Source: Chromera velia
Taxonomy: Eukaryota; Sar; Chromeraceae
Reading direction: 5' to 3'
DNA: 64,000 nt
Assembly (NCBI GenBank): GCA_018398765.1
Contig: JAHBMJ010002465.1
Coordinates: forward strand, 16,454 to 80,453
The notes beneath the pieces are model-generated. The model searched no databases. It saw only the letters and a list, made by a program, of their open reading frames with translations, and was not told the origin of the DNA. Each line of letters starts with the position of its first letter. Position 1 is the first letter of the stretch. The position numbers and the translations under genes were made by a program. Below are positions 1,156 through 24,700 of the stretch, one piece after another.

Positions 1156-2708
1156 TCAACCCATCCCGAAGCCTCGAGAAGGGCTGGCTTGCGAGTCGCT
1201 GCCGTCAGTGAACTCCCCAAACCGCACACTCATGTCTGCTTCTGAGGTGGCCGCTCTGACCCCATGGACCCTGCAGGAGAGTTTGGCGGCACACGCGAAC
1301 TTGGCGGCCTCAACGGACTCTTCGAAGATCCAACAGATCTTCCTGTCTCGTGTCAGATACAGGACTGTGGCTTTGGTTTGGAATTCTTCGGGAATGGCGG
1401 GGAAGGCGGCGGCGATCATTTCGGGTTTCTTCACGATCCGAACAATGTCGTGAGCACTCCAGTTCATTATCTCCTCCCCTGCCTCATCTACCAGAGAGTA
1501 GGCTTCTACTGTGGAATCAATCTTGAGCAGGACAGATTGAATGTCCTGCTTACTGCTCAAAATCGCACAGGGGTAGCCCTCCAAGGTTTCTCTCCAGAAG
1601 GCACGCACCATGGCCTTCAGGGCAGCCTTGCTCGATCGTGCTTCCTTCTGATCTCTGCTCTTCATTCCCTGCACAATTGCACCAAAGTCAAATTCATCGT
1701 ACAGAAGCTCATCTTCATTTCTCTCCAATTCGGGTGGGGGAATGGCTTGGGAGAAGTTGGGAAGTGTGAACGAAGCTGAGGGGCCTTGAGCCAAAGCTGC
1801 ATACGGCGTTTCCTCCTCTGGCTGCACTTCGGTGCCGTGAGGGTTATGAATGAGCGCCTGGGNGGGCTGGCTTGCGAGTCGCTGCCGTCAGTGAACTCCC
1901 CAAACCGCACACTCATGTCTGCTTCTGAGGTGGCCGCTCTGACCCCATGGACCCTGCAGGAGAGTTTGGCGGCACACGCGAACTTGGCGGCCTCAACGGA
2001 CTCTTCGAAGATCCAACAGATCTTCCTGTCTCGTGTCAGATACAGGACTGTGGCTTTGGTTTGGAATTCTTCGGGAATGGCGGGGAAGGCGGCGGCGATC
2101 ATTTCGGGTTTCTTCACGATCCGAACAATGTCGTGAGCACTCCAGTTCATTATCTCCTCCCCTGCCTCATCTACCAGAGAGTAGGCTTCTACTGTGGAAT
2201 CAATCTTGAGCAGGACAGATTGAATGTCCTGCTTACTGCTCAAAATCGCACAGGGGTAGCCCTCCAAGGTTTCTCTCCAGAAGGCACGCACCATGGCCTT
2301 CAGGGCAGCCTTGCTCGATCGTGCTTCCTTCTGATCTCTGCTCTTCATTCCCTGCACAATTGCACCAAAGTCAAATTCATCGTACAGAAGCTCATCTTCA
2401 TTTCTCTCCAATTCGGGTGGGGGAATGGCTTGGGAGAAGTTGGGAAGTGTGAACGAAGCTGAGGGGCCTTGAGCCAAAGCTGCATACGGCGTTTCCTCCT
2501 CTGGCTGCACTTCGGTGCCGTGAGGGTTATGAATGAGCGCCTGGGGCTGTGTCTGCCTCTCCGAGTAGACCTCTGTGGGGGGCCTATGCTCGGTGTACCC
2601 TCTCTGGGGTCGGTTCAGGGTCCCCACATGGAGCTCAGACCCTTTCTGTCGAGGCGGCTGGAAACAGCAGCCACAAATGCAGTCACTCACAGACTGCTGA
2701 GCCCCCAT
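1156..2708 (-). CDS. ISP-like dual-acylated membrane-skeleton protein
   Basis: The protein starts MGAQQS, a good N-myristoylation signal (Gly2, Ser6), followed by Cys10, Cys12, Cys14 and Cys15 as likely palmitoylation sites. A Pro/Glu-rich linker leads to a C-terminal region of about 130 residues with alternating strands (for example AILSSKQDIQSVLLKID and TVLYLTRDRKICWIF) and a final helix (EESVEAAKFACAAK). This fits the PH-like fold of apicomplexan IMC sub-compartment proteins, which attach to the inner membrane complex by the same lipid signals. The frame as assembled is broken by an exact 683-bp duplication next to an N at 1863. Removing one copy gives 870 nt, that is 289 residues ending SRGFGMG. 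It is a single exon, divergent from the ARO gene. The family call rests on pattern and context, so it is moderate. Confidence 0.5.
1181..2545. repeat. exact 683-bp tandem duplication around an N (likely assembly artefact)
   Basis: The sequence from 1181 to about 1862 reappears from 1864 to about 2545 with an offset of 683 and no difference that I can see. The only ambiguous base in the window, N at 1863, sits at the junction. Because 683 is not a multiple of three, the duplication breaks the frame of the ISP-like gene. Removing it restores an open frame to a natural stop. The pattern is typical of two overlapping contigs joined without merging. Confidence 0.85.
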
Positions 2709-3410
2709 TTTAAAGATACAAAGGATACCTTAGTCAATGTCTTCTCAAGCGGTTGTCAGTGAATTCTTCTGACGCATCGATGCGTTTGTTTTCTTCTCGA
2801 GGAGGCACACTGATTGTACCGCTGATCCTGGCCGGCGAATGTCTGTCGCTGGTAATTATGCGTGTGCGCCGAACCACGAATACTTGGGTAAGCGAAAGAG
2901 AGATTTGTCAATACAGAGGTACTGAACACACTCTGATATATATACATCTGCACGCGGGCGGTTTCGGGTCATTTGATCCGAATCGATCGCTTTGATCAAT
3001 GGCCGGCTCAAATTCTTATAATTAATTAATGCATGTATGCGCACGCTTTGAGTCTGTTTTGTCGCTCGACCACAATTTGTGCGCAAACTTAAATCATCCT
3101 GCATGCATGCATGCATGGCGCGTCACTTAAAAAAAAGTCAATTAACGGCGATGCAGTGTGTATATATATAAATCGCGGTGCATCCATGTGTCCGCCTTTC
3201 CGCGCCTGCGCATGCATGCACGCATCGATCTGCATGCTGGACAATTTTCGATCGATCCGATTCGATCGACCGAAGTTGCCAATTGACGGTCAGAAGAACC
3301 CCACTGTCACAAATTCATTTGTACCCCAATTACACGCTGTATGAAGGAGAGACTCAATGGCTGTGGCCCTGACACAGAAGGAAAACTAAGGAGGTCACTT
3401 GACGGTCGCC
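2709..3410. promoter_or_regulatory. shared divergent promoter of the ISP-like and ARO genes
   Basis: This 702-bp spacer separates two head-to-head starts. It carries TGCATGC-type elements: a run of overlapping GCATGCATGC at 3100-3117, GCATGCATGC near 3210-3220 and TGCATGC at 3231-3237. TATATATA-like DNA occurs near 2937-2944 and 3162-3170, and GATCGATC palindromes occur nearby. In Toxoplasma and Plasmodium, TGCATGC is a known promoter element and a target of ApiAP2 factors. That the same holds here is inference. Confidence 0.5.
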
Positions 3411-4588
3411 ATGGGGAATCAGTGTTGCGCCACGGGGCGCGACACGAAGGTCAAGCAAAAAGCGCACGACAGGCATCTCCAGCGGTCGGATTCTGAGTAC
3501 CGTTCCGGTATGAAAAGCAGATACAAGTCAGGACAACTGCGAGGAGGGGATGACTGTGAAAGGTTCGATCGGGCGTTTGAGACCCAAGACATCCGTGAGA
3601 TGGTGCAGTTGTTGAACAGCAATCAAAAGATCGACACTCTAGATGAGGCCATGCACCCGTGGGCTTCTGACCCACAGACCGTAGGGGCTTTGGCAGCGAC
3701 TCACTTAGCGATTCTGGCATCAAGCGATAACGACTCATCAGCCAGTCAAGAGACGCAGGGCAGCAGTGGGAAGAAGGGAGGGAAGAAATCAAAGTCCTAC
3801 AGGAATGAAATCCGAAAGTGCGGGGGCATTCCTCCACTTGTGCGCTACCTTCAGTCTCAGGAGGTCGACAGGAACGAAGCTGCGGTGGTCGCTTTGTCCT
3901 TTCTGTCAGTAGACTCGTCAGTCAACTGTCAGATCATGTACGACAACGATGCGCTTCAGTTGCTGCAGAGACACCTCCTCAGCAAGAAGGAAGGAATGAG
4001 GGCAGCCACCGCGTCTACACTTCGAAACATTTACGTCCTCAACATGGACACACGGCGAGAGTTCCTGGGAGGAGAAGCGCTTCCCCATTTTCTACGCTTA
4101 CTTGACGATCCTCCGAACTCTGAAGTGAGTGGTCCCTCTCGAGTACTCGTACATGCACATGCATCTATATAAATCCACCTCTTTCTTTCCACCGACAGTC
4201 GCCTACATTTGTTTCCAACAATACATGTGTTCTCTTCATCTGTGCGCATCATTACCGGATGGAGTTACCCGTCGACATATCTGCATTACCTGTTTCTGTC
4301 ATTTTTCTCTCTGTCCGTCTGCCGGTTTTCCACAGAGAAAGGGAGGGGGGAAAACCTCTCTCCCTCTCTCTCTCTCTCCCGCCCCCTGGCCATTTCTATC
4401 ACTTCCTTCTGTCCCTCTTCCTTTCTTTCGTTCGTTCGTTCGTTCGTCCTCTCTTTCTTTCTTTCTTTCTTTCTTTCTTTTTCTCTTTTTCTTTTTTTCT
4501 TTTTTTTCTCTTTTTCTTTTTTCCCCTTTCTTTCTTTCTTTCTTTCTTTCTTTCGTTCGTTCGTTCGTTCGTTCGTTCTTTCGTTCGT

Positions 4589-13744: not shown

Positions 13745-15072
13745 CTACATCAAACCAAGTTTTCCAGTAGTGAAAGCAGCTGCAAGCTTCCCTCCGCTTG
13801 TCGTGACGACACTCCGGGGGTCACAGGGTCCAATGGGCCAGCGGGGGAAGACCTCAACGAGTTTGTCGATGTCTTCGTCGGTGCTCTGCTGAGGGGGGGG
13901 CGGCTTGGAGAGGCCGAGCTGAAGCCTCTTGAGGGCAGTCCACGCGACCATCACCCCGTTGTCTGTGCAGAGACGGATTGGGGGGACCAGACAGGGGATG
14001 CTGAACTCCGCAGCGACAGCATCCAGACCCGCCCTCACGGCCTTGTTGGCAGCCACACCTCCTGCGACGACCTGTCAGTGCAGCGAGATGGGCAAAGACG
14101 CAGCCAAAGAGGGTTTCGAAAGAAATGAGAAATGGACGGCTCGATCTGATGTCATGCGAAGCACGAGGAGAGGAGAGCCAGCGAGAAGAACCGGGGGATT
14201 AAAAAACAGAAAAAACATACAGGAAGGCCGGAGGAAGATTTCTTCTCAGGTGGAGGCTGCACAAACACGCAGAAGGAGCGCGAGAGGGTGAGAAGCAGAA
14301 AGACAGTGAAAGGGGAACAGGGAAATAGGTGGAGAAAGAGGGGTTGAGTGAAGACTCACAAGCGCGTTCACGAAAGGTTTACCCTCCTGTCTGCAGTCCT
14401 CCCTGACCCATTCGAGGGCCCTTCTCGTTCTCTGTTGAAGGAAGGCTACAGAGACGCTTTGAAACACCGCAGCCGCATCTGCACGCAACCTCTGGAGGCT
14501 CTCCGAGAACTCTGCCGTCTCCCCCCCCTCTCCGTCTCCCATCATGTCTCTCTTCAGCTTCTCCGTCTCCTTCTCCAACAACGAGGCGACTGACGTTTTC
14601 AGACCTGAACCAGAGAGAGAAAAGCGGGAAGACACAAGTGATTGAGAGAAACAAAGCCGCAGCCTTCAGAGAAAACATCGGACCTCCTTGTTGAACACTG
14701 ACGGAGGAAGTCCAGACAAGACAAAAAGATTTGAGAGGGGAGGGGAACAAGAGAGGTACGGAAAGAAGTTTCTTTCCCGCCCGTCTACCCACCACTGAAG
14801 GAGAAATTGCAGCTGAGCCTGCTGGGTCCGTTTTGCATCGGCATGGTGATCTGAGCCTTCAGGGAGGCGTTCTGGGGGTTCCCTGAGGCTGCGAGTTTTT
14901 CCAGAGCAGGGCCTCCAGGGATCTCCTTGATGTCCATCTGCATGCATGCATGCGCGAACACACAAACAGATAAACAAACAAACAAACAAGGTACACAAGC
15001 AGGGCAACCTTGCGTGCTTTTCGTTGAAAGTGGGGACAGACAGACAAACACATGCAGATACATAAAAACACG

Positions 15073-15117
<45 letters not shown>

Positions 15118-15693
15118 GCACGCACTCAAGTACCCCGCGATAGAAAAAGACGCAGACGTCCGCGTTGACAAAAAGACGGAGAAAGTTTCGTATTGAAACG
15201 GGAAGAGAATACAGCCAGACGCACTCTAGAAGGAAGATGGAGTGCAGAGAGGAGGCAAGGAAGTCAGCCACTGGGAAAGAAACTCATCACGCGATTTCAA
15301 TTCGTCTCAAAGAAAACACGCGTAAAAGAGCCAGAGATTCATGTGACTGATGGTACTTGCCTAACTCGTTTGACGGACTGACTGACTGACTGACCACCCT
15401 GGCCACCTTATCGAAGCACTCCCCTATAGAGTCATCAAGAGTTGTCCCGACCACCTTATGCCGCCCCAGACCCTCGGAGTACACAATCATGTTATGCCCT
15501 CCAGATACCAGCAGCAGCAGGGCAGGGAACTTCACGGGCTCCCTCCTCGGACCCCCTCCCTGGGAAGGGCCGCCTTCCACCTCCACCTCGGGCATGCTGG
15601 TCACAAGCGCGTGGGCCTCCATATGATGCACTGGCACCAGGGGGACCTGGAGTCTTGCAGCCGTCTTCAAGGCGTGACGCACGCCCACCTGCA

Positions 15694-15734
<41 letters not shown>

Positions 15735-18012
15735 GTATTCAGAGAGAGAGATGGAAGGAGGAAGAAGAGACAGGACAGCTGCACGAAGAATGCTCGTGAG
15801 GAAAAAAGAACCCGCAAGACTCGATCAGTCCGTCCTTTCTGTCTCTTTTTTTCTGACAGATAGACCGAAAAGGTGGCAGCCAGGAAAGCAGATTAACAAA
15901 AATAAAGGGTCACGCGACGGGACAGAAAAGCAGGCAGGAAGACTGAGACACTGACAAGTGAAAGAAGCACAAGCACGCATACAGACCTGCAGGCACAGAG
16001 AGAGTCCTGGTCCCACAGTCACCCCAACTGCCGAAAGGGCCACTCGCCCCTCAGACACACCCGCAGCCTGCAGACACCTCTCCACTGTGCCCTCTATCGC
16101 TGCCGCATGGGCTTGTCTGGCCACGTCCGGTTTCACCCCCCCGAATTCCTCGTGCATTCCCTTTTGAGATGCGATCTCATGGGAGAGGATCAAGCCGTCC
16201 GACCTCACCACTGCAGCAGCCGTGTCGTCACACGAACTCTCGATTCCCAGAACCGCAAACGAAGCGTCACTCGAGAACACACCCCCGGAAGAGGAAGAGG
16301 GGGCGTCTGCAGAGAGGGGAGGGGCCGAGCCTGCCTGGCCCCTCCCTCCGCTCAGATCTCTGCGAGGGGCGGGGGGCGCTCCCTTTTCCCTCCAGGCCCG
16401 CAGCTTGGCACTAGAGAAGTCCTCAGAGATGCTCTCGATGCACACCAGCCTGCCGAGACCCTGAGTCCCGATTCCGCTCACAGAAACACTCAGACCTGTA
16501 GACAAACACACAAGCAAAAAGAAAGACAGACAGACAGACTCTATCGTCTTTTCTTTCCTTTTTCTTTGCCTTTCTCTCAGCCAGCCAGACAGGCAGACAG
16601 GCACGCAGGAAACGGATGCACTGCTTGATTTCATGTAATTAGACAAAAGAGACAGACACACGGCCTGTCCTGACAGTCAGACCACGGGGATGGGAATGAC
16701 AGTTGACGAAGGATGGAGACAGCGGCTCGGAAAAGTGAGCGAAGGGATTTATTAATAGAAACACAGTAGGCAGGCCTCCTTTCTTGGCAAAAAATTGTTG
16801 CAAACGCCGGCTGTAAGCATGCATGTCGCTGTGTCAAAAACTGAGAAGGGAAATTGATTCATGTCGTGCATCTCATTGGTAGATCTCAAAACTGCCTGCT
16901 TCCGTAAACTGATTCCCTTCCCATCCTGCACTTCCCTCTCGTCCGTTTCAGAAAGACAACAATGTATGGCTGGACCCTTTGAGAGGAAGACACCGACCTT
17001 TTGAGATTCCCTCCATCACCCCCGTTGGCATTTTGTCTGGCCACTCGATCAAGCACACGTGTTCTCTTAGGGCACAGTCGAAGTCGATGAGCCCCGCCAT
17101 CTTGTCTGCGTTCTTCAGCCTGAAGGGGTCCATGTGGTGGGCAGTCAGGACAGAGGACCGTGGGCTTTTCGGAGAGGAGACGTCCATGGAAGACGAAGAA
17201 GAAGGACCCCCGTCTCCCATCTCCACATCTCCTCCGGGACTCACCCCCCCAGAATCTTTTTGATAGGACAGACAAAGAAGGTAAGAAGGACTGGGCACTT
17301 CAAGAGACCCATTGTCACAGAAACTCCGAATGAACCCCCTTGCTAGAGTCGACTTTCCTGCCCCCAACTGTCCCTTCAGGAGAATGGCCGTGCCCCGATG
17401 TCCGAAGTTCTCTTCCAAAATCTGGCCGAGCTCTTCTGTCTGACTGGAGTCCTCGAGCCAAAGGAGAAAACCGTCAGTGTAAGATTCAGGCAGGGCGTTC
17501 GAAATAGAAGCAAACAAACGCCCCCTTTTGAGGTGCTCTTCTTCCTCATGGACCGCAATCACGGTTTCTTCTCCCCCCTCACCCCTCTCTTCAGGAGACG
17601 GGTCGAAAGAAGGCAGCACATGGAAATGCAGTTGCGGGACCGTCTGTCCCCCACTGGGCCCATTCTGCTGTTTGACTTGAAACCCTGTGGAGTTGGTTGC
17701 CTTCTGCACCGCTCTACAGAGAACTTGGAGATCGATCATGAAGGACGTCCACGCCTCTGCAGGCACGGGCTCTAACAGAGTGGCAACCTCATGCTTCAAG
17801 CAGAGAATGCAGTGACCCCAGCACTCAGGGGCAGGAGCCAGAAGAGCGAAGCTGTGCTCCCTCTCGAACAGTACACCTCCCGCCAAACCTGTGCCCTGTC
17901 TTCGTGAGAGAACATTCTGAGGAAAAAACTTAAACTCTGTCACTGGAAGGGACGCATTTGCGGAGGGATTCTTTTCCTGATCCCTCTTTCGCTTCTTTTC
18001 CTTCTGCAGCAT
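13745..18012 (-). CDS. HIT-TsaE-TsaD fusion, tRNA t6A biosynthesis
   Basis: Six exons: 18012-16998, 16495-15987, 15688-15395, 14937-14793, 14604-14360 and 14071-13745. All junctions fit in phase, giving 844 residues. Residues about 30-135 are a HIT domain with GGQTVPQLHFHVLP; the first His of the triad is Gln127, while His129 and His131 remain. Residues about 190-370 are TsaE: Walker A GQLGAGKST (214-222), SPSY, HMDPFRL and LIEWPD. The first junction joins the end of TsaE to its last strand and a linker. From about 417 comes bacterial-type TsaD (Kae1/Qri7 family): GIESSCDDT, metal motif HHMEAH, SGGHN, FSFSGLKTS, VVAGGVAANKAVR and CTDNGVMVAW. TsaD transfers the threonylcarbamoyl group to A37 of ANN-decoding tRNAs, and TsaE is its ATPase partner in bacteria. 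The N-terminus is Lys/Arg-rich with no clear transit peptide, so the compartment is uncertain. An in-frame TAA lies just upstream of the start. Confidence 0.88.
15073..15731. repeat. (CA)n microsatellites in two introns of the TsaD fusion
   Basis: (CA)n runs at about 15073-15113 and 15698-15731 lie in the introns after exons 3 and 2 respectively. On the coding strand the second forms the (GT)n polypyrimidine-poor stretch directly before an acceptor GTGCAG. Exon 3 (15688-15395) lies between them and is not repetitive. Confidence 0.85.
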
Positions 18013-18760: not shown

Positions 18761-21700
18761 ATGCAGGGACAAGATTGGGGCGCATGGCAGACCTCTGGGT
18801 CAGTTTCTGCACTTTGCGTGAAGCAGTCGGTTCTTCGTTTTTTCGCGTTGTTTCGTGAATCCGGCTGTTTTGTCACGGCTTCTTTTTTGTCCTCATCCTT
18901 CTAAATCTTGCCCCTATCTGTTGATCTCTTCAGGAACTGGGCTGCAGGCGGAGGTCAGGTCAATCAGGCGCACCCGTCTTCTCACGAAACCGCTTCCCAT
19001 ACGGGAGGAGGGATGATGAACGGATATCCCCGTGGGCAGTCTCTCTCTCCTCAAGACGCCTTCCAGTCCTACAGAGGGGTGGGGGGCGGGTTCGGGCAGA
19101 CAGCCGGTTCCCCTGCCACACCATATTCGTCTTCCCAGATGGTACAGGGGGGGGGAATGTACATGAACCAGGGGGGCGGGATGCCAAGCAGCACGTCGCC
19201 GTATCTGTCGGGGTATCAGACCCAGCAGCAGGGAGGAGGTATGCAGCAGCAGTCCCAACCCATGCCCGCCAGAAGCACAGCCCCTGCCACCCCCACCGTG
19301 CCCAAATCGACTCTTCCTGTACAGGCTGTGAAGAGTGCGGTTGATGCCCTTCCTCAAGTTGAGCGCATTTGTTACAGGTTTCTGTGGGAGCAGGCAGGTT
19401 GTACACGCACAGGGAACAAACTGCAGGGCCAGGACGCGTTTGACTTCCTGATCCAGTCCGGACTACCGCAAGGATTCCTGGCTGCCGTTTGGGAGGCAGC
19501 GGACTGGCAGAGGAAGCAGAGAGGGTGGCTGGGATGGGACGAATTCGTTGTGGCCATGAGGCTCATCGCACGAGCGCAGGATAGGGCAGGACTTATTCAG
19601 AAAGCCAAGGTTGGTTCGTTGGTTGGTTCTGTAGGGGTGGGAAAAGGCAGAAGAACTACCTTTTTTGACTTTATTGAAAATACTCTTCCGGTCGATTCTC
19701 CTCTGTTCGTTCCCCTTCTCTCTTTCCTGCCCTCCCCGTCCCTTCCACTTCCCTCTTTGATTTTCGCCTTTCCCACTCTCCCTTGTCTGCAGTTCCTTCC
19801 CGATGATAACATTCGAGAAGGCACCTCCCCCCTAACCTACCAGGACCTGAAACTAGAGAACATATTTTCCCCAGACCCCAAGACCCCCCACGTGCCCCAG
19901 GTCCTCCCAAGGTTTCGAAACCTCCACTCGAATCTCCAGCAGTTCGAGAGCCAATTCGCGCACTTCCTTTGTTCCGCCGGCCACGTGCCCCTTCATCCTG
20001 CATACGCAGGTGTGGTACCAGGAGCACAGAGTGCAACCGCAGCCATGCACACACACACCTCTGGTCCCACCACCCAAGGCACCTCAGGTCCATCGGGTGC
20101 CAATAAATGGGACCTGATCACCTCTGCATTCGGAGACGTCGTGCAACCGGGGGGCGGGCCTTCTCAACGGATCTCCTCGCAGCAGCTGCAACACACAGCA
20201 GCAATGCCACAGCCCTCTATGGGAACAGCAGCAGCGTGGCAACAGCAGCCGCAAGTAGGAGGAGCAGGAGGGGGGCTTCCCTCCATGTCCCCCCTAGGCG
20301 GAGTTTCCGCAATGTCCCCCGGCACCTTTCATCAGCCTCCAGGTGCAGGATCGGCAATGTTTGCGTCCCCATCCCCTCCGTCTGCAAGCTGCAGTCCTGC
20401 TGCCTCCCTCTTCCCTACCGCCCCCCAACCCCAAGCCGCCAACGTCAGCCAGCTGCCCCAACTGGCAGCCACCCCCTCCCCTCCTCCGATGGGCGGTCTG
20501 CCTGCATCTGCGAGTGAAGATGACGATTTTGGGTTTGGCGATTTTGTCGCCGTGCCTGCTGCCTCTGCTGCGCCCACAGGCCACTCCCGATCTTCGTCTC
20601 TACAGCAACAGCCTCAACACCAGTCAGAGAAAACAAAAGCCAGAAGCGATTCAGACGATCCATTTGCGTCAATAGACGGGGGGGCAAATCGGGGAGGGAC
20701 ACAGCAACATCAGAAGGAGCAGCCGTCTCCGTTTGCACAGAGCAACCAGGGACAAACAACGGCGGCATTCTCTGTCGTCGATGCTCCCGTGCCCTTGCAG
20801 CAGCCACGGACAGAAAGGGAGATCTCCGATGAATGGGGAGACGCCTTTGTTGCAGCTGCTCCTCCGCCGCCCCCACCTGCAACCGTACAGGCGCCGACAA
20901 GCGCACCATCAGCAAGTCCAAACAATTCATTGGCCCCCCTCCCCCATGCGCATCCCAAAGAACCTGCAGCTTCTCTTCCTGCACCGGCACCAGCCACAGA
21001 TGAAGAGGACGACTGGGGTGACTTCACTGCCTCCATGCCTCAGAGCCAGCCTGCACCCCCTGCTCCTCCTGCTCCAGCTCCGCCACCACCCTCTCAGCGG
21101 CTGTTCGGTGCCTTCGACGACCTCGTTGCACAGAGCGGCAGTGCTACTGCAAGCACAGCAGTCCCTGTACTGTCTGCAGGTGTGTCCCATGGAACTCAAC
21201 AGCCGCCCTCCGAGGCAGAGGCAGAGAGTACCGCAGTGACCAGAGCGGCGGCAGAGCCCGGGGGGCCGTCTCTCTCCTCTCACGCCTTCTCTTCCTTAAA
21301 CATGGGCACAGAGGGGGCACACCCCACAGCAGAATGGACCTCCCATCTTCAGCAGCACAGCCAGGCAGAGGCAGGGGCAGGGGGGGATCAGCTAGGTCAA
21401 GCAGATTTTGGGGTCTCTTTGGCCCAGATGGACTTTGAGATGCACTCCCCCCCCGCATCTCATGCGGGCACCAATCTGCCTAATCCTTCACCGCAGGCAG
21501 AGAGCGATTTTGTTTTAGGCCATCAGGGAAGATTTGCATTCGCATTCCCTCCTGCGGCGGGAGAGGAGTCAGTGACAAAGCCGCCTGCTGAAAAAGCAGC
21601 TGCAGAGCAGACGCAGGCAGTCGCCCATGCAGGCGGCATGTCAGGGGATTCTCCGGCCTCGCCATTCGGCGACGATGTGCCGGTACAAGCGCAGAATGCA

Positions 21701-24700
21701 AATAGTTTACAGGGGGTTGGTGGGTCGCACATAGGGGGTGCAAGTGAAAGTGTTGCAGATAAGAAAGATGACTTCTTCAGTTTGGGCGGAGGGGGAAATG
21801 CAGCGGGTGTGCAGAGGGCCGCCGAGACCGGGCGGGATTTTTTTGAGGAGACGGGGGGGTTTGGGGCAGGGGGGGGCAGTGGGGATTTTGGAGATTTCAT
21901 GGGAGCCGGCCTGAACGACGCGGACTTTGGGGACTTCCGTGGGGCCATGGACGGAGTGGATGAGGGTGAGGCACCCCCCCCCCCTCCACCTCCACCGCCC
22001 AGGCCGGAAAAGGGGGGGGAAAGTGGCGCATCATCAGCGTCGGCAGGGGGTGGTGTTTCTTCAGGTTTTGTTTTTGATGGGCTCGGGGAAGAAGTCGGAG
22101 AGAAAGACTTGGTGGGGGGTCTTGACGTCGGGGACGAACCTTTTGAATTTGTGTCCTCGTCTGGTCCCCCTGTAGACAAGGGGGAAGAGGGACTAGTGGG
22201 GGGGGGGGATTCCCCTTTTGGGGATTTCCAAGTTGGGGGTGCGGACAGTTCTCTGAACAGAGAAGAGTCGCCCTTTGGGGACTTTAATTCATTCCCTGCT
22301 CCTGCACCTGCTTCTTCTTCTTCTTCTGCACAGGAGACGGGAGGGTCTCCGTTTGGAGATTTCCCGACGGGGGCATCAACAGGGATGCAGGTTGTCCAGC
22401 AAAACAGTGGGGAGTGGGGGGCGTTTGAGGGAGGTGGTGCTCTAGCAGCAAAAGAGAAGACACCACCATTGTCTCCAAAAGCTAGCAGAAAGAAACCCCC
22501 TCCGCCTCCCCCACCTTCAGACCCACCCCCGCCCCGCCGAGAAGTGTCCCCCGTTCCTTCTCGTTTCTCGGCTTTTGAGGGTCTCGTGACTTGCCTGGAT
22601 CCGAGCGCAGATTCGAAAGGAAGTGGGAAGGGGGGGGCAGATTCTAGTCAAGACAAGTGGGCCGATTTGTTTGCGTTAGGAGAGGAGGACGGCACGGGAG
22701 CGTCGGGGTCTTCCGACGCTGTTTGTCGTGGGTTGACTTTTCTGCGTACTGCCATGAAGAGATACGATGAGGATTTGACCTTTCTTGAGAAGAACGCCAC
22801 AGGTGCCAATGAGACAGAGGAGAGTCAAAGGGGGGCAGTCATGGGATTGAGGTCAGTCTGTCTCTAGCAAGAGCAACGAACTCTGTGTGACGGGGGCAGA
22901 GGGGGAATGAGAGGTCATGTGTGTGAGTACCTGGGAGATCGGTCGCGTGTGGATGCGTCGCTGAGGTGCAGCTTTTTGATTGTGAAGTTGGTTGGGGCTT
23001 GCTTCGGTCTCCGGAAGTTTCCTCTTGTTCTGATCGCCCCCTTACGGAATATTTCTGAGCTCACTTTCTTCCTTCATTCAGAAAAGCCCCCTCTTTTTTT
23101 TGTGCATATATTCCCAATTCAATTCAATTCAATGTATTCTTTCAACGTTCCCCCCTCCCACTGCAAGTAGATGTGGGTTTGTCATTGTGCAGGCTATGGA
23201 CAGAGGCCGTCGCTGCTGCCTGCATTTATTTTCATACAGAATTTCTTTTCATACATGCATGAAAATAAATGAGTGCAGGCTATGGACAGAGGCCGTCGCT
23301 GCTGCCAAGGCCCGAGGGGACGGGTGGACAGCAGGGGTGATCGCGCGGCTAGGGGCGGTGGGAGAGGGTCTAGGAGAAGTGACGTTGGAGTGTGTGGGGG
23401 CACTGGAAGCGGCAGCGACGAAGAGCACGGAGGTAGGTCAGCGGGTTGCACGGAAGGAAGGAAGGAAGGAAGGAGGGAAGGAAGGAAGGAAGGAAGGAAG
23501 GAATCGTTGATTGGTGTCGTTGCAGACGGGGGAAAGAAGGATAACAAAGCTGTTTGCCTCAGTCTTGCCCTGTCTTCATTGACTCCTCAATGGGACAAGG
23601 AGGCCAAAAGGAAGCCACCGAACAAGCACGAGAACGAGAGATGCTCAAACAAACAGACAGACAGACACACAGAGGGACAGAGAGAGAGAGAGAGAGAGAG
23701 AGAGCGCAAAGAGGCAGGGAGGGATGAAGAAAAAAAAAAACAGGGGTGAGAAATAGGAAAGGGACAGAAAAAACAAGGCACACCGACGCAGCAGAAGTTC
23801 CTTTCCTGCCGGTTTCAGAGATTGCAACCTCCTTTCGACTGATGCATTTTCCTCTTTGACCCCTCCCTCCCCTCACAGTTCTTTCTTCCTTTCTTCTGTT
23901 CCCCTCCTCTCTGCTTCTGCAGGGACGTTCTCCCAAGTCCCCCTCCCGCTCTCCGAAGTCACCCAAGGGAAAGGGAAAAGACAAAACCGACTCGTCCCCC
24001 TCCTCAAGGCCCTCCTCTGCCCTCTCTGTCACTCCTCTCTCCTCTGCCGATGCTGCCGCTCTCCTCGCCTCTGATCAGTTCAAGGCCTTCCTGACCGGTC
24101 TCAGAGGGCTCCACAGAGTCCTCTGGCGACTCTTTACTGCCTCTGCCCCCTTCCTCCAACCTGCACAGTCGAGTACGGTGGGGGGAGGGGAGGAGAAGCA
24201 CCTTGCAGATGCTGCAGTGCAGACGGAAGAGAGCCTGCTCAAGGCAGGGGGGGCGTGGGTGCGGCTTGTGAAGACTCTGAGGGCACTTCTCGGAGACGCG
24301 CCTGCAGTCTCAACCCTGCCCTCTCTTCCCTCTCGACAGCAGACTGTCCGACTGCCCCCACTATCCCACTGGGTCCTGGTGGTCGGGGGGGGAAAGGGAA
24401 AAGACTCCCACCCTTTCTTTTTTGAGGCAGAGCTTCATGACGCACGCAACGGCATGACGTTCTCCTTAAAGGAGGCCGCGGCACTTCTTGTAAAGAGAAG
24501 AGTCCCGGTGCAAGATGGAGGCAGTCTGAAGAGCCTGATGCCCCTCGGTCCCCCTGCAGAGAAATGCGCCTTCTGTCTCCTTCCCGCGGTGCCGTCCCTC
24601 TTCTCGGACAGCGCCGATCTAATGGCAAGAAGTTGCAACTGGCGCGGAATCCGTGTCCATCTGGTATGTGCCAATGTTTTGGAAACCTACTGTGAAAGTC

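Follow-up and report, generated by a model that had tools for sequence, protein, structure and literature searches.

How does Chromera velia place N6-threonylcarbamoyladenosine (t6A), a nearly universal modification, on the tRNAs encoded in its nucleus? The KEOPS complex is regarded as general in eukaryotes. The question is raised by a gene in a 64,000-nucleotide stretch of this genome (contig JAHBMJ010002465.1; the whole stretch is called the window), in which a HIT domain, a TsaE ATPase and a TsaD share one reading frame. In the published scheme, t6A is made by TsaBDE in bacteria, by KEOPS in archaea and the eukaryotic cytoplasm, and by Qri7 in mitochondria (PMC9654439, PMC11648230). We consider it reasonably probable, judging by its sequence, that the gene specifies a one-chain, TsaB-less t6A transferase that acts on nuclear-encoded (cytosolic) tRNAs and replaces KEOPS. 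The fusion would probably modify the main tRNAs of the cell rather than those of its organelles.

HIT, TsaE and TsaD are encoded by a single gene

The gene lies on the minus strand, with its ATG at 18012, its stop codon at 13745 and seven exons, including a candidate exon 6. Its product has 856 amino acids when this 36-nucleotide exon is included and 844 when it is left out. The features are as follows.

16998..18012, minus strand: exon 1, with the start codon, a KEKKRKR stretch resembling a nuclear localization signal (18003-17983), the HIT domain and the TsaE core
17605..17874, minus strand: HIT domain (PF01230), residues 47-136, with the QLHFH motif at 17634-17620
16998..17475, minus strand: exon-1 part of TsaE (PF02367 and predicted structure), residues 180-338, with the Walker A motif GQLGAGKS at 17373-17350
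16496..16997, minus strand: intron 1, GTCGGT..CTACAG, at the junction 16998/16495 within TsaE, with stop codons in all three frames
16371..16495, minus strand: exon-2 part of TsaE (predicted structure), residues 339-380, with strands 339-345 and 354-360 and helix 363-376
15987..16495, minus strand: exon 2, with the end of TsaE, a linker (low predicted local distance difference test values at 390-410) and the start of TsaD
15395..15688, minus strand: exon 3, TsaD with the metal motif HHMEAH at 15628-15611
14793..14937, minus strand: exon 4, TsaD
14360..14604, minus strand: exon 5, TsaD
14221..14256, minus strand: candidate exon 6, 36 nucleotides or 12 amino acids, in frame, not in the transcript protein
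13745..14071, minus strand: exon 7, the end of TsaD (with the metal Asp of CTDNG) and the stop codon

The HIT-TsaE-TsaD fusion is real. An open reading frame from an MMETSP transcript (P0001; 844 amino acids, 'type:complete') is identical at all residues to the translation that skips exon 6, a comparison made at the level of protein rather than transcript bases. An earlier note on this DNA had read one 844-residue gene from the splice phases, with a junction at 16998/16495 at which the TsaE core continues into its last strand. The transcript-derived protein equals that gene and spans that junction, across which the TsaE fold continues in the predicted structure. Because this protein exists and the fold crosses the junction, two adjacent genes wrongly joined are ruled out. 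The candidate exon 6 (14256-14221, PPPEKKSSSGLP) is flanked by GT/AG splice sites and is skipped in the transcript protein; it may be alternatively spliced, or may be no exon at all.

All three domains pass their Pfam cut-offs, as the same note had expected. The TsaD domain scores 214.4 bits against PF00814 (cut-off 24.8) and also passes the gcp_kae1 subfamily model TIGR00329 (229.2 versus 207.8 bits). Among TsaD/Kae1 models the bacterial TsaD equivalog TIGR03723 scores highest, at 276.8 bits (below its cut-off of 296.1), in agreement with the bacterial type first assigned to this domain, and the KEOPS Kae1 model TIGR03722 gives 139 bits on the spliced fusion, below its cut-off of 375. TsaE is complete, as claimed, with a score above the PF02367 cut-off, a P-loop and a full fold in the model; its equivalog TIGR00150 reaches 40.0 bits, below the cut-off of 60.1, and the domain contains a long low-complexity insert. 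The predicted structure likewise holds a complete TsaD fold.

The two enzymes keep most of the residues that we compared with Escherichia coli, among them residues that we take to be catalytic. In TsaD, 22 of 27 positions are identical, including D11, H111, H115, D167, G180, N272 and D300; those that differ are E12, I15, G114, S184 and R273. The metal residues His111, His115 and Asp300 (E. coli numbering) correspond to H530, H534 and D773 of the fusion. TsaE has 16 identical positions out of 21 (G38, G40, K41, H78, D80, R83, E108 and W109 among them) and differs at D36, T42 (now Ser), T62 (Ser), T64 (Leu) and V107, and its P-loop, HxDxxRL and EWP motifs are retained. Across 73 aligned fusions, H293, D295, R298, L299 and E323 never vary, and conservation of the Gly and Lys in the P-loop is at least 90%.

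The HIT domain scores 52.2 bits against PF01230 (cut-off 21.5). The earlier observation that Gln replaces the first His of the triad holds: QxHxH, here QLHFH, stands in place of the full HxHxH. A homologue search with the fusion returned 522 proteins at E<=0.001 (7998 candidates scored). Domain architectures, taken from precomputed Pfam domains, refer to the best 120 of these, which comprise 15 HIT-TsaE-TsaD proteins, 66 TsaE-TsaD proteins and 39 TsaD proteins without HIT or TsaE. Gln-Leu-His-Phe-His recurs in 13 of the 15 listed HIT fusions (the first residue is His in P0008, and P0010 lacks the last His), Gly-Gln-x-Val precedes the motif in all 15, and a Gly-His is found in all 13 rows of an alignment that omits P0014 and P0018, which start inside HIT. 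The domain matches FHIT chains and has the Gly-His, the Gly-Gln-x-Val and the second and third His of the triad, which we take to be FHIT active-site residues. Unlike FHIT-like hydrolases, it carries Gln for the first His and is joined to TsaE-TsaD.

No clear KEOPS or TsaB gene was found in the genome

A PF00814 search of the 177.8-Mb assembly gave six exon matches in two TsaD genes, the fusion and a multi-exon gene on the minus strand of a second contig (L104; G000:C1545:19500-27500; hereafter the C1545 TsaD). The only match to TsaE (PF02367) in the genome lies in the window, and the C1545 TsaD has no TsaE. Neither the Kae1 profile (four matches, up to 39.4 bits) nor an Arabidopsis Kae1 query (three matches at E<=10, up to 27.8 bits) matched anything in the genome beyond these two genes, and it is this that gives the Kae1 negative its weight. 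Human and Arabidopsis Kae1 match each other at 539 bits. As a positive control, the tRNA-modification protein Elp3, which is shared with archaea, was recovered at two loci, whose top-scoring exons reach 143 and 98.5 bits. Whole-protein cut-offs (375 bits for Kae1, 125 for Bud32) are beyond the reach of single exons and Elp3 also falls below its own, so a score below the cut-off means little here. A further Kae1 query, PDB 9x4g, directed at the other bearers of the fusion, is nematode-like by its matches; the named ones among the best 120 of 7985 are all animals, and this query is thus uninformative on algae.

The genome gave no match at E<=1 to Cgi121 or to Pcc1, small proteins for which sensitivity is limited. 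With the Bud32 profile there were 101 kinase-like matches, none above 35.3 bits, and human TP53RK gave a best E of 0.07; HGDL, presumably the Bud32 motif, was absent from the eight of these loci that were read, two of which have an HRD-type kinase motif. TsaB (TIGR03725) likewise had no genome match at E<=1, and the same profile was positive in 14 of 14 control genomes. One Sua5 gene is present (L105; G000:C3448:68500-74500, about 1868-3559), with PF01300 and the Sua5 C-terminal domain PF03481. Its start (MRCLWVLCLLPSLVIDSASF) is hydrophobic and leader-like. An inner Met lies just ahead of the domain, and a dual product for plastid and cytosol is possible.

The fusion lacks the leader that the second TsaD carries

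The fusion begins MLQKEKKRKRDQ, with no hydrophobic stretch, and a scan of N-terminal hydrophobicity found no organelle targeting leader in it. By contrast, the C1545 TsaD begins MRTGRRHFLCVLAWMVLAPLVCAGSALAF; its signal-peptide-like stretch and ALA|F precede a basic, arginine-rich stretch. The highest Kyte-Doolittle mean over 13 residues is 0.46 in the fusion, against 2.56 in the C1545 TsaD. We take the latter start to have the form of a complex-plastid leader, by which this protein is probably plastid-targeted. With one TsaD of plastid type and no Kae1 found, the fusion is the sole candidate seen for all other tRNAs, and so for cytosolic t6A, barring gaps in the assembly.

The Walker A motif was located in 64 of the 66 listed HIT-less fusions (a few of which are fragments); in 53 of these it starts no later than residue 50, near its position in E. 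coli TsaE, and thus leaves no space for a leader. Of the 39 listed TsaD-only proteins, 38 have the GIE motif, and 36 of these carry at least 59 residues ahead of it (four of the 38 are the extra rows of the fusion clade described below). Matches to a pattern resembling a nuclear localization signal, defined ad hoc for this analysis, occur in the heads of 6 of the 15 listed HIT fusions (0.7 expected from shuffles) and in the tails of 43 of the 66 HIT-less ones (19.4 expected).

The strongest alternative is that the fusion is a TsaD of plastid or mitochondrion to which TsaE was added, and that KEOPS is present but was missed; we regard this as unlikely. In its favour, the TsaD domain clusters with TsaD proteins of eukaryotes, plant GCP1 among them, and the records of some of these proteins carry a mitochondrial label; the TsaD-only relatives also bear the N-terminal extensions just described. 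However, the fusion itself has no leader: the transcript open reading frame starts at the same Met as the genomic gene, and in the genome no more than 12 codons separate this Met from an in-frame stop. Moreover, the plastid-type leader belongs to another TsaD, and the well-conserved Kae1 was not found, whereas Elp3 was. On these grounds the organellar setting first considered for the fusion is probably wrong.

That one gene serves both cytosol and mitochondrion, for example by alternative starts or weak targeting, seems to us less likely again. Myzozoan mitochondria are thought to import tRNAs and should then need no t6A enzyme of their own, and the fusion has no leader-like stretch. On the other side, the Sua5 of the same genome appears suited to two places by its hydrophobic start and inner Met, and a quarter of C. 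velia aminoacyl-tRNA synthetases are predicted for all three compartments (PMC6723311). It is highly improbable that TsaE and HIT are mere passengers, with TsaE inactive and TsaD acting alone as Qri7/OSGEPL1 does in mitochondria (PMC9654439), because even though no TsaB was found in the genome, the key TsaE residues and motifs are kept both from E. coli and among the 73 fusions.

Several points weigh against a cytosolic enzyme that has replaced KEOPS. The absence of KEOPS comes from exon-by-exon searches of one genome, in an assembly whose completeness is not established. The small proteins Pcc1 and Cgi121 evolve rapidly, and a diverged Bud32 or a diverged TsaB could still be present. The TsaB profile matches the spliced fusion weakly (17.0 bits) and does not match the fusion locus in the genome search, which is thus less sensitive than a search of the spliced protein. 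Tails resembling nuclear localization signals are enriched in the TsaD-only proteins too (14 of 39, with 5.3 expected), so that this signal is weak evidence. Finally, two fusions that we call euglenid-like from their record names, P0043 and P0055, have hydrophobic N-terminal stretches (2.48 and 2.83), as an organellar enzyme might, so that a cytosolic reading does not suit every bearer.

TsaE-TsaD fusions occur in many algae and protists

The fusion is not peculiar to this genome. The 15 listed HIT fusions are that of the window, 12 records from 10 named green algae (of Chlamydomonas, Pleodorina, Gonium, Astrephomene, Volvox, Haematococcus and Tetradesmus) and two nameless records. HIT-less TsaE-TsaD proteins named among the matches listed come from Vitrella, Symbiodinium, Amoebophrya (treated in PMC12005148) and Prymnesium, and the majority are nameless. 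The Vitrella protein is 43% alike to the fusion across 76% of its length.

A TsaD tree was built from 85 of 140 prepared rows by a quick method with Shimodaira-Hasegawa-like approximate likelihood ratio test (SH-aLRT) supports and no bootstrap; its eukaryotic rows are those retrieved by the fusion search, plus the C1545 TsaD. All 46 fusions sampled fall, together with four further rows, in one clade (SH-aLRT 97), nested in a eukaryotic TsaD clade (SH-aLRT 99) apart from 20 bacterial rows, a position that argues against a separate transfer of TsaD from bacteria. Three of the four further rows start inside TsaE and are thus fragments; the fourth, P0078, is a TsaD recorded under the oyster Magallana gigas and is probably a contamination of that record. 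The bacterial loci are a sample, the best 80 of at least 579 confirmed when ranked by likeness to plant TsaD, and a crude count of words in titles or assigned ranks makes 59 of these 80 alphaproteobacterial.

The window protein lies in a 12-row clade (SH-aLRT 99) with green algae and three HIT-less rows, and Vitrella lies outside it. P0011, which starts inside TsaE, may be merely a fragment; P0016 and P0017 lack HIT within a HIT clade, which suggests that they lost it. Vertical descent shared with Vitrella was rejected, with the window and Vitrella proteins constrained as one clade (approximately unbiased (AU) test, p 0.005; the pair was chosen after the tree had been seen). When the C1545 TsaD, a long and partial row, was constrained with the fusions, the likelihood was above that of the free tree (AU p 0.66).

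Tentatively, and with rather less confidence than we have in its function, we suggest that TsaE fused once to a eukaryotic TsaD of organellar kind, and that this bacterial-type switch and transferase moved to the cytosol and nucleus, replaced KEOPS in its function in several lineages of algae and protists and was transferred among them, the last because the copy in this genome groups with green algae and not with Vitrella. The named green-algal bearers (P0002-P0018), which we take to be Chlorophyceae, fall in the class with Sua5. Within green algae, Sua5 instead of TsaC is found only in Chlorophyceae such as Volvox, likely by transfer (PMC10321239). Chlorophyceae may have acquired the fusion and Sua5 together.

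The TsaE region of P0070 served as a query in a search limited to relatives with exact words in common, which yielded 15 proteins out of 697 candidates; 13 are TsaE-TsaD, with no bacterial fusion apparent among them, and the four that are new are nearest to known fusions by BLAST. Other joined proteins were seen. P0245, from the same search, has TsaE joined to a phosphotransferase, and P0246 (357 amino acids) is another t6A fusion, of a TsaC/Sua5 domain and TsaE. P0090 is a 1023-residue TsaD whose N-terminal half has a weak match (22.8 bits, below cut-off) to CTU2, of tRNA 2-thiolation, a faint hint of a further tRNA-modification fusion or of a merged gene model. Next to the fusion gene in the window, and divergent from it, lies a 1320-residue Pro/Gly-rich open frame (18905-22867, plus strand) with an EH domain (35.3 bits).

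A model for t6A synthesis by one chain

We infer the compartment, activity, TsaE switch and HIT role of the fusion as follows. Threonylcarbamoyl-AMP would be made by the product of the single Sua5 gene, and the TsaD domain would transfer the threonylcarbamoyl group to A37. The TsaE domain, on its flexible linker, would bind and hydrolyse ATP and swing on and off the TsaD active site, resetting TsaD at each turn; it could leave so that tRNA enters. Two TsaD domains may pair in the manner of Qri7, and the HIT domain may remove unused or broken adenylate. The fusion would thereby occupy the place that KEOPS has in other eukaryotes.

In bacteria, TsaE binds TsaD-TsaB but not TsaD-TsaD, TsaE and tRNA are mutually exclusive on the enzyme, and TsaE is released by ATP hydrolysis (PMC9654439). 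The idea that a built-in TsaE:TsaD ratio makes assembly unnecessary holds only in part, as TsaB, on which the binding of TsaE to TsaD depends in bacteria, was also not found. With TsaE leashed to TsaD, TsaB would no longer be needed for finding the partner; the covalent tether would substitute for it, and the fusion may compensate for this absent component.

The fusion can be set beside four known systems. In the predicted structure it shares both the TsaD and the TsaE fold with the bacterial TsaBDE (E. coli YgjD, YeaZ and YjeE), and it has most of the compared residues, but it is single-chain and eukaryotic, with an extra HIT domain and no TsaB found in the genome. Among the matches listed, its nearest TsaD-only relatives are plant and algal proteins of the GCP1 type, and Qri7 also acts without TsaB (PMC9654439); unlike Qri7, OSGEPL1 and GCP1, the fusion carries TsaE and no leader, in a genome with a separate TsaD that has a plastid-type one. 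With KEOPS (Kae1-Bud32-Cgi121-Pcc1) it presumably shares the task, cytosolic t6A synthesis with an ATPase switch, of which Bud32 is the KEOPS counterpart (PMC9654439), and the archaeal Kae1-Bud32 fusion (3en9, 2vwb) is an analogue of TsaE-TsaD. The switch ATPases are nevertheless unrelated, Kae1 comes from another branch and KEOPS parts were not found here. Pandoravirus TsaN (TsaD-TsaC-SUA5-TcdA; PDB 8ide), which makes t6ADP/t6ATP (PMC11077089), has different partners and no TsaE.

Significance

Among titles and the starts of abstracts, with many subscription papers outside this scope, we found no description of a TsaE-TsaD fusion or of KEOPS loss in algae. The available portions of PMC9654439, PMC11077089, PMC8469502, PMC10321239, PMC11648230 and PMC6723311 do not mention such a fusion; the last deals with the reduced mitochondrial genome of Chromera. 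If the proposed function is correct, a eukaryote without detectable KEOPS, using a one-chain, bacterial-type and TsaB-less enzyme, would break the three-way scheme of t6A synthesis. The fusion would then be a natural minimal t6A machine, and would offer a direct test of the role of TsaE and of whether any role of KEOPS beyond t6A is indispensable.

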